Source: Daejeonella sp.
GTDB lineage: Bacteria; Bacteroidota; Bacteroidia; Sphingobacteriales; Sphingobacteriaceae
Direction of reading: 5' to 3'
NCBI RefSeq assembly: GCF_030684675.1
Contig: NZ_JAUXXZ010000013.1
Span: 1-61,581 of the forward strand
DNA: 61,581 nucleotides
Part shown: positions 1,911 to 15,955 of the stretch, piece after piece
Layout of the letters: each line of letters starts with the position of its first letter
How positions within the stretch are numbered: the first letter of the stretch is position 1
Made by a program: the position numbers and the translations under genes
Notes under the pieces: model-generated
Told to the model about the DNA's origin: nothing
The model's database searches: none
Seen by the model: only the letters and a program-made list of their open reading frames with translations

Positions 1911-2064
1911 ATGAACTCAAAATTTCTAGGCGCCTCTCCTCCCCCTCTTTTGGAGGGGGCTGGGGGGAGGCCTCCTGGTGTAGTGGTAGGGGGAGGCTAT
2001 TCAATTTCAATGAGAATCTTTCTTCCAACCACCCCCTTTCATTCCCCCGCCGGCGGGGGATACT
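1911..2064 (+). repeat. gene-less copy of the DUF559 element (MITE-like)
   Basis: The block reads in order: a gaactcaaaatttctaggcg module, a C-tract/G-tract hairpin at about 1938-1966, the module gtagtggtagggggaggc, then tcaatttcaatgag at 2001-2014, and a right module with accccctttcattccccc, then a palindrome ccccgccggcgggg, ending gatact. The same modules in the same order bound the DUF559 gene at 15.2-15.85 kb. There the start codon lies in tcaatctcaatgag and the stop codon in the right module. This copy therefore looks like the element with its gene removed. No real gene is seen from 1767 to 2243; short frames here only read through the repeats. Confidence 0.7.
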
Positions 2065-2093: not shown

Positions 2094-2190
2094 ATCTCAA
2101 GTGAACTCAAATTTCTAGGCGCTACGCCTCCCCCTCCTTCGGTCCAAAGGACTCCTTCGGAGAGGGGGCTGGGGGGTGGCTCGTGATTGT
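2094..2190 (+). repeat. second partial copy of the element's left module
   Basis: It begins gtgaactcaaatttctaggcg, nearly identical to the start of the block at 1911. It continues with a long imperfect hairpin of C-tract and G-tract arms (about 2125-2177) around ccttcggtccaaaggactcc. It lacks the right-hand module, so it is a solo left end. Confidence 0.6.
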
Positions 2191-15219: not shown

Positions 15220-15850
15220 TATTTCCCTCTTCACTCGAATTTCTTAGACACCACGCTGTCCCCCTTCGGAGGGGGGCGCGTTTAGCCTTGTGTGATAGCA
15301 GGGGGAGGTCAGCCATCACAAAAGCTCAATCTCAATGAGTAAACGGTTTTCATCGAAAGTTTTAAATAAGTTTAATTCAGCATTTTATCTAGTAATGGGA
15401 AAGGCAAATTCATCCAATCTTTGGTGTTATAATAAAGCTTTGCGTACTTATTCTAACATGAATAGAAAAGCAATGACCAAAGCTGAGGCCTGTTTATGGA
15501 AATATTCTCTAAGCAAAAGGCAAATGGAAGGATACCAGTTTTTGAGGCAAAGACCTGTATTGAGTTATATTGCAGATTTCATGTGTAAAGAACTTATGCT
15601 AATTATTGAAGTTGATGGTCTTACACACCAATGGGAGGAGGTTGCATTGAATGATTTTAAGCGTGAACAAGATTTGAAGGGAATTGGATTTACGGTATTA
15701 CGTTTTGATGATAATGATGTTTTGAATCATATTGATAATGTATCTTATCTGATAAGGGAGTATATGATTGATTTTAAGAAGAGAAATAGTATAAACCTCC
15801 CCCTTTAATTCCCCCTCAAGCGGGGGATACTGGGCGCCTAGGAATATTGC
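15220..15850 (+). mobile_element. repeat-bounded DUF559 nuclease element
   Basis: The unit has a left module (15220-15339) and a right module (15794-15850). The left module holds the ttcactcgaatttcttag motif, a cccccttcggaggggg hairpin, gtgtgatagcagggggaggtc and tcaatctcaatgag. The right module holds acctccccctttaattccccct, the palindrome arm cgggggatact, then gggcgcctagga. The gene's ATG (15335) and TAA (15806-15808) both lie inside these modules. The modules recur joined and gene-less at 1911-2064, and the left module recurs at 15861-15955. No target duplication or terminal inverted repeat of the classical IS kind could be recognised. Confidence 0.55.
15335..15808 (+). CDS. DUF559 domain endonuclease (Vsr-like)
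   Basis: The 157-residue protein matches the DUF559 pattern: MTKAEACLWKYSL (47-59), FLRQRPV (69-75), a likely PD-(D/E)xK-type core with D81 in YIADF and E92/D94 in IIEVDG, then R110 and FTVLRFDDNDVL (119-130). DUF559 proteins resemble the very-short-patch repair nuclease Vsr and are presumed DNA endonucleases. The ATG at 15335 lies in repeat sequence shared with 2001-2014. A shorter start at 15395 would fit the usual family N-terminus better. The last codons (NLPL and stop) are also repeat sequence. It is the only plus-strand gene in this minus-strand stretch. Confidence 0.85.
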   Translation: MSKRFSSKVLNKFNSAFYLVMGKANSSNLWCYNKALRTYSNMNRKAMTKAEACLWKYSLSKRQMEGYQFLRQRPVLSYIADFMCKELMLIIEVDGLTHQWEEVALNDFKREQDLKGIGFTVLRFDDNDVLNHIDNVSYLIREYMIDFKKRNSINLPL

Positions 15851-15860
15851 TAAAAGAAAA

Positions 15861-15955
15861 TATTTTCCTCTTCACTTAAATTCCTTAGATACGACCCTGT
15901 CCCCTGTGGATGTGGGAGTGTTTAGATATGTGTGGATGCAGGGGAAGTTAAACTA
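15861..15955 (+). repeat. extra copy of the element's left module
   Basis: Starts tattttcctcttcactt and runs to gcaggggaagttaaac. By eye it matches the left module at 15220-15313 at roughly four of five positions over its first 44 bases. The hairpin arms have decayed (cccctgtggatgtggg). It ends at the stop codon of the minus-strand Spy-like gene. Confidence 0.65.

Follow-up and report, generated by a model that had tools for sequence, protein, structure and literature searches.

The locus studied here raises the question of why a small nuclease gene should lie between two palindromic modules that recur elsewhere without it, and of what moves such modules. In the window, which is the whole analysed stretch of 61,581 nucleotides from a genome of 4.25 Mb in 84 contigs, the layout is tail, hairpin, GGGGGAGG, gene, CCTCCCCC, hairpin, tail. 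The left end module (15225..15320, + strand) consists of the tail CTTAGACACC, a hairpin CCCCC-TTCGGA-GGGGG at about 15260-15276, and then GGGGGAGG at 15301-15308. The open reading frame of the nuclease follows at 15335..15808 (+ strand), and the right end module (15796..15842, + strand) is made of CCTCCCCC at 15796-15803, the stop codon TAA at 15806-15808, a hairpin CCCCC-TCAAGC-GGGGG at 15811-15826, and the outer end GGGCGCCTAGG. As the initial annotation had proposed, the right module (CCTCCCCCTTTAA) supplies the stop codon of the gene. Its companion proposal, that the start codon at 15335 lies inside a repeated module, is probably wrong, since homologues favour the start at 15395. The stretch at 1911..2064 (+ strand) had been read as the same modules in the same order and on the same strand with the gene missing, and alignment upheld this likeness: it contains a left module, GGGGGAGG, a 30-nt middle and a right module, the right modules (15794-15831 against 2027-2064) being 87% identical over 38 nt and the left module sharing 56 of 74 aligned bases with the 1911 block, more than in all 300 shuffles. 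Also, a degenerate second left module forms a gene-less half unit in tandem with the first (15860..15950, + strand, 64 of 80 aligned bases identical to the left module), and an additional gene-less half unit, AAATTTCTAGGCGCTACGCCTCCCCCTC..., is located at 2100..2190 (+ strand, 85% identical to 1920-1953). The pair of left module and 1911 block was absent among the 20 largest repeat families listed by a repeat search, and Rfam at gathering thresholds gave no match in the window.

The reading frame matched the Pfam profile PF04480 (DUF559) with 94.2 bits against a cut-off of 20.6, which bears out the initial assignment to DUF559, a nuclease of EDxHD/Vsr-like type. DUF559 was the only Pfam family above its cut-off on this frame, with no transposase domain reported, and the profile search found it to be the sole PF04480 match of the genome. 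The residues T-x-x-E, F-x-R, I-x-D-F and E-x-D-G-x-x-H are all kept, and the alignments that include the window copy have 19 (A1, 12 rows) and 18 (A2, 26 rows) invariant columns. Compared with the PDB, profile A1 retrieved 3hrl, an 'Endonuclease-Like Protein' (E 3e-32), and 3r3p_A, a 'Mobile intron protein' (E 1.5e-5), the latter entry being presumably I-Bth0305I. The dN/dS ratio of 13 nuclease pairs was 0.05-0.17 in eight, 0.37 in one and not computable in four, values that clearly point to purifying selection on the nuclease. A passage of a review lists EDxHD as a homing endonuclease family (PMC3943268), and part of a 2005 study presents YcjD as a known PD-(D/E)XK member whose profile detected Vsr (PMC1189080).

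Gene-less copies were expected to be commoner than gene-bearing ones, and this is the case in the window's genome, where matches to the end modules were obtained at 18 or more other places, beside a single gene. Some of these places are two parts of one unit, and the count is a lower bound in that 15 of 76 first-look candidates were scored. Better copies than the 1911 block lie elsewhere in this genome, among them L027, with 63 of 79 aligned bases identical in the left module and 62 of 68 in the right one. In the gene-less units, about 20-40 nt replace the gene, and some units follow one another in tandem, about 40 nt apart. Judged by their sequence, the gene-less units are evidently the same end modules joined. 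Two further observations concern the arrangement of these units. At ten of the places inspected in this genome (L008-L014, L017, L021, L024), the right module is enclosed by a short element whose terminal inverted repeats (CTATCGTGTGGACACAT / ATGTGTCCACACGATAG) measure 18-20 bp. Most of these places are at contig ends, so that the physical copy number is uncertain; this is apparently one repeat riding in another. In two other genomes (L068 in G094, L117 in G092), pairs of DUF559 matches lie 561-567 bp apart on one strand, which suggests that a gene-bearing unit was duplicated in tandem.

The claim that DUF559 genes lie between such modules more often than by chance was examined on 64 loci from 55 genomes, picked by reading-frame size from lists of profile matches. 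The flanks of 20 loci had been read before the others were chosen, and most flanks were read before testing. Two of the loci (L038, L122) turned out to be LeuS inserts, and two (L038, L058) were skipped as they had no downstream flank, leaving 62. Reading frames of 1000-1400 aa with DUF559 were left out of this stand-alone sample; the idea that they are helicases was rejected, those opened being inserts in LeuS, MetH and others. The hairpin criterion was a perfect stem of 7 with a homopyrimidine 5' arm, at least 4 G/C and a loop of at most about 60, within 200 bp of the gene. Such a palindrome was present upstream in 45 of the 62 loci, downstream in 34 and on both sides in 29; the 12 loci that have none on either side at this threshold count against the mobile-element reading given below. 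Controls were the best-scoring loci of three families in 54 DUF559-carrying genomes, with upstream, downstream and both-sided counts of 0, 0 and 0 for GIY-YIG (28 loci, 2 of 30 skipped), 0, 1 and 0 for GNAT (30 loci) and 0, 0 and 0 for S23 (30 loci). The claim thus held, with both sides occupied in 29/62 DUF559 loci against 0/88 controls. Three other thresholds gave both-sided palindromes in 14, 20 and 19 of the 62 loci, and once among the controls (GIY-YIG, 1/28, arms of any bases). Among 20 other reading frames of the same DUF559 loci, one had a palindrome upstream, none downstream and none on both sides. The likeness of one flank to the other exceeded the 99th percentile of mismatched pairs in 29/62 DUF559, 1/30 GNAT, 15/28 GIY-YIG and 14/30 S23 loci; GIY-YIG and S23 genes are thus themselves bordered by matching sequence and can serve as controls just for the type of palindrome, and GNAT is the clean control. 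A sample of named genomes yielded 80 loci, of which 66 were stand-alone with full flanks, and had palindromes upstream in 36, downstream in 37, on both sides in 27 and on either side in 46; for the ten loci from phyla far from Bacteroidota (assigned by name), four had one on either side and three on both. The modules are thus tied to DUF559 genes and not scattered without any link to them.

GC hairpins are common near bacterial genes, and a small accessory gene could in principle lie by chance between palindromes whose ordinary role is to terminate transcription in both directions or to stabilise RNA. We consider this very improbable. Such palindromes were on both sides of none of the 88 same-genome controls and none of the 20 neighbouring reading frames, and the units are dispersed repeats. 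They also occur in frame within essential coding sequences (see below), where a terminator would do harm, which contradicts the terminator reading; the control flanks and the intragenic units together led us to rule it out.

Whether the repeats follow the genome or the gene was addressed with a canonical unit pattern, TCTCCN{0,20}GGAGARGGN{2,6}GGRNTGAG. Of 295 genomes, 80 contain a match to it, and none contains the reversed control pattern. The unit was found in 64/139 genomes with DUF559 and 16/156 without (p 2.7e-12, phylogeny not corrected for), and ten or more units in 33/139 against 2/156; in total, 1159 units lie in the 139 DUF559-bearing genomes and 96 in the 156 DUF559-free ones. It was also present in four of the six genomes of other phyla that gave a DUF559 locus. 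The window's genome has 4 canonical matches, its own unit being of another type. Two DUF559-negative genomes (G153, G183) speak against the mobile-element reading, with 23 and 34 units and a completeness of 87% and 78%, respectively. For 1762 pairs of loci from different GTDB families, likeness of the flanks rose with likeness of the nucleases (rho 0.315, with 0/999 permutations as high). A repeat score of at least 20 was reached by 0/13 pairs with a protein similarity below 0.25, 2/648 at 0.25-0.35, 32/839 at 0.35-0.45, 44/228 at 0.45-0.55 and 14/31 at 0.55-0.70; against the trend, the three most similar cross-family pairs share no repeats at this score (0/3). Within one genome, unlike DUF559s (similarity below 0.45) shared repeats in 2 of 25 pairs. 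Because the repeat type tracks the nuclease type and unlike DUF559s rarely share repeats, the repeats tend to belong to the gene and not to the genome. These comparisons show that the gene moves with its modules and that the type of repeat co-varies with the type of nuclease.

In Escherichia coli K-12, ycjD (L216) is a DUF559 gene whose stop codon lies inside a CCCTCTCCC...GAGGGGG repeat, with another copy following; we take the palindromic repeat adjacent to ycjD to be Box C. The repeat was found in 5377 of 5426 complete E. coli genomes, with a median of 19 places per genome having any. The ycjD region is covered to at least 80% in 3333 of the 5426, about two fifths falling below; this counts against a need for the gene, as the species keeps its repeats all the same. 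In the two regions opened (L297, L298), an efflux operon or its remains replaces ycjD, in accordance with part of a report that other E. coli strains carry eefRABCD at this position (PMC12817139). On this point ycjD differs from the element described here, in that it occupies the site of other strains' eef operon.

The persistence of units without ycjD would agree with DUF559 being a passenger, that is, cargo for repair or defence inside MITEs that owe their movement to recombination or to a transposase of some other kind; the right modules found within the terminal-inverted-repeat element indicate in the same direction that units can ride on others. A passenger would not be expected to behave as DUF559 does, however: from one bacterial family to another the repeats go with the nuclease type and not with the genome, one gene family occupies the middle in broad samples, and the nuclease is under purifying selection. 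We thus judge this explanation improbable.

Evidence of movement comes from a genome of the window's genus (G005) with two gene-bearing copies that are 96.75% identical over 523 bp. The match begins at the first base of the palindrome ACCTCCGCCAGCGGAGG and runs to contig ends inside the right repeat, and the left flanks directly beside the palindrome are unlike. A third copy, 90% identical to one of the pair over 439 bp, starts one palindrome later in this left unit and is without the right repeat. Together with the LeuS loop described below, these boundaries show the unit structure and its mobility.

The initial annotation had asked for orthologous sites without the element and with clean junctions, and here the outcome was divided, the LeuS loop described below being empty in relatives and the junction at the window's own site not being clean. 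The DUF559 profile had no match in any of the 15 same-genus loci orthologous to this site. In 13 of the 15, both flanking matches were present with 31-474 bp between them, against 746 in the window's genome. The nearest relative (G010) carries different DNA, 284 bp long, in this position, so that the gain was not a clean insertion. A clean insertion is thus not shown for this site: host sequence was replaced, and the relatives have other DNA. About 220-260 bp of this DNA is shared by G010, G012, G018 and G007 (80-85% identical to G010); the shared intergenic stretch (GCCGGAGGAGGTAGCTTCCGG...) is conserved and has no match in the window. By eye, apparent short repeat remnants are visible at the orthologous site in G008, G011 and G007. 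No target-site duplication was evident at the sites inspected, namely LeuS and the window's site.

The clearest view of the element was obtained inside a leucyl-tRNA synthetase gene. In G049, a single frame of 1006 aa runs through LeuS, palindrome, DUF559, palindrome and the LeuS editing domain, the domains being assigned by Pfam, and another genome of the same genus (G128) has a plain LeuS loop. When 395 genomes were searched at the protein level, an uninterrupted match spanning LeuS and DUF559 was obtained in 16; loci of the window's genus and others were added to these for the tree described below. Within one GTDB family (f1), the loop exists in three states: empty in G032 (where an insert interrupts LeuS at a different site), filled by a gene-less in-frame unit in G033 (76 bp) and G312 (85 bp), and filled in frame by palindrome, DUF559 and palindrome in G010, G004, G008, G012 and G006. 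Gene-less and gene-bearing forms can be aligned at their ends (AGCCTCA..., ...CTCCCTCTCCTT(T/C)GGAGAGGGCCGGGGTGAGGCT). Read from these alignments, the loop is the relation of an autonomous element to its derivative at one locus. The parallel with RAYT and REP drawn in the initial annotation is thereby supported by the flank test, the copy numbers and this shared loop.

A host tree was built from 65 LeuS sequences, 27 with an insert and 38 without, which are not a random sample; G028 (L318) was omitted because its contig ends in the insert. The insert requires 17 gains or losses on this tree, at least 14 of them forced by well-supported branches, and shuffled labels required 20.9 changes on average. 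A single ancestral insertion with neither loss nor regain was rejected on these grounds. Judged by length, 26 of the 27 inserts are in frame, a count biased by the fact that most loci were found via long open frames or contiguous protein matches. The exception is G092, whose insert breaks the LeuS frame; that of G233 is in frame by length, yet the repeat downstream of DUF559 contains a stop codon (its open frame is given as 1152 in one table and 451 in another).

Other genes are interrupted in the same way. Pfam placed DUF559 inserts at a second LeuS site, B (L061), at two MetH sites, A (L074, L076) and B (L062), in acetyl-CoA synthetase (L079 and L085, same site), in a class I tRNA synthetase read as IleS (L073), in HsdR (L032), TsaD (L314), a PF00814 protein read as TsaB (L312), RecG (L324), methylmalonyl-CoA mutase (L321), TatD (L268) and a type ISP enzyme (L317). 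By sequence alone, two more loci belong to LeuS site B and four more to MetH site B, and DUF559 is fused to an end of HisF, HemF, PurQ, RluD, ThiE and threonine dehydratase. Pfam reported no intein domain in 17 interrupted or fused proteins, and the inserts remain in one open frame with the palindromes translated, so that they are neither self-splicing introns nor inteins. A tree of 66 DUF559 sequences, in which those of TatD and the type ISP enzyme are not included, gathers all mid-gene inserts but that of HsdR, plus one stand-alone gene, in a clade of 50 (98/96). The inserts of LeuS site A are not one clade, at least three changes being forced, and the idea of nuclease lineages specific to this site is therefore unsupported. 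Inserts of family f1 in LeuS A, LeuS B and methylmalonyl-CoA mutase group together (98/87), as if elements moved between sites within a lineage; the HisF fusions are one clade. These data make a strong case that the element enters intergenic sites and, in one DUF559 clade, also essential genes, where the frame is mostly kept and the palindromes are translated.

As an alternative, DUF559 might be a transposase-like enzyme that, as RAYT or TnpA(REP), excises or copies the palindrome-bounded element as single-stranded DNA and moves gene-less units in trans. The half units of tail and hairpin in inverted or direct pairs, the tandem arrays and the dispersed gene-less copies have the look of REP and BIME, the LeuS loop is empty in relatives of carriers (G128, G032), and the inserts at LeuS site A, with at least three forced changes, are of more than one lineage. 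On the other side, DUF559 is an EDxHD/Vsr-like nuclease, Pfam reports no transposase domain, target-site duplications were seen neither at LeuS nor at the window's site, and host sequence was replaced at the latter. We consider a transposase-like action unlikely.

The reading that we prefer, and hold to be rather probable, is that the DUF559 gene and its two palindromic end modules form one mobile element which undergoes homing-type copying between its own units. This copying probably takes place between the element's units, and we infer that the nuclease drives it. The nuclease would cleave a target without the gene, most probably a gene-less unit already in place or the cruciform that it forms. 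Recombination by the host would then copy the gene-bearing unit into the break, with homology provided by the end modules. A gene-less unit would on this model have two roles, as a product of deletion and as a homing site. As no splicing, in-element transposase or target-site duplication was seen at the inspected sites, an insertion into a gene would be expected to persist just in loops that can accommodate about 140 additional residues.

The comparison with described systems is instructive in this respect. Like REP/BIME sequences with their RAYT (TnpA-REP), the units are repeats of tail plus hairpin in inverted pairs or arrays with many gene-less copies, one associated gene lies between genome-dispersed hairpin repeats, and repeat type matches gene type. 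Unlike them, the enzyme is a DUF559 nuclease and not an HUH/Y1 transposase, the tails seen are of the TGAGG and GGCGCCTA types and not the GTAG/CGTC tag, and in-frame insertion in essential genes is frequent. With the EDxHD enzyme I-Bth0305I and free-standing homing endonucleases, the element shares a related nuclease domain, the reuse of the same sites in conserved genes and presence or absence among relatives; it differs in having no intron or intein, the insert staying in the protein, in being bounded by dispersed palindromic repeats with gene-less copies, and in that the DUF559 nucleases of the LeuS site are not one lineage. Rickettsia palindromic elements (RPE) are palindromic repeats which lie in frame in protein genes, are translated and carry no gene. 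The gene-less LeuS units of G033 and G312 resemble them as in-frame translated palindromic inserts, and the difference is the DUF559 nuclease gene between palindromes. As for MITEs of insertion sequences, a gene-less derivative has the ends of a gene-bearing element, but the gene-bearing form found here carries DUF559 only and no transposase, and no target-site duplication was seen at the inspected sites (LeuS, window). To our knowledge, this class of element is new, is general in our sample, and stands between REP-RAYT and homing endonuclease genes, being by our tests a member of neither.

Dispersed GC palindromes of the kind found in the DUF559 unit extend from Bacteroidota to E. coli, and some repeat classes have no known mobilising enzyme. 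A nuclease family of unknown role is here tied to such repeats by flanks, genomes, co-variation and an orthologous site, so that experiments can now ask directly what moves them. According to part of a 2013 survey, CGTC repeats seem to be without a dedicated transposase (PMC3733652). In full-text searches of the open-access literature, judged by titles and the opening lines of abstracts, no paper was found to tie DUF559 to palindromic repeats or to in-frame LeuS inserts. Also, large conserved enzymes such as LeuRS, MetH, acetyl-CoA synthetase, a class I tRNA synthetase read as IleRS, TsaB, TsaD and RecG carry a whole nuclease domain in frame, which in LeuRS was gained and lost many times; this is an unusual route of domain acquisition. 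For annotation this is a warning, since a 'DUF559 domain' in such enzymes is an insert and no part of their function.

A wider reading, which we offer tentatively and rate as possible and short of probable, is that these are unspliced homing elements in which DUF559 cuts its own gene-less palindromic units, is copied into them, and so returns in frame, time after time and in different phyla, to the same loops of essential proteins, small GIY-YIG and S23 (four-helix) genes with matching repeats of another type being parallel systems whose repeats reach the same LeuS loop.

The GIY-YIG and S23 loci have features of their own. The 30 GIY-YIG loci (L126-L155) are small stand-alone genes, with matching sequence on both sides in 15 of 28; on inspection by eye, TCATCCTGAGC/GTCGAAGG-type repeats border the gene, or else it adjoins a tRNA gene. 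ARAGORN found a tRNA gene in all six GIY-YIG loci given to it (L138, L143, L144, L146, L148, L153), and in L138, L143, L144 and L148 part of the tRNA seems to be repeated on the opposite side of the GIY-YIG gene. The 30 S23/four-helix loci (L186-L215) have AT-rich flanking repeats, mostly inverted, e.g., AGTATTGAGTATT, and 14 of the 30 exceed the 99th percentile. In the LeuS loop that receives DUF559, in-frame stretches resemble by eye an S23-type repeat in L372 (G100) and L380 (G244) and a GIY-YIG-type repeat in L374 (G279), as if this loop were a common landing site for the three repeat families.
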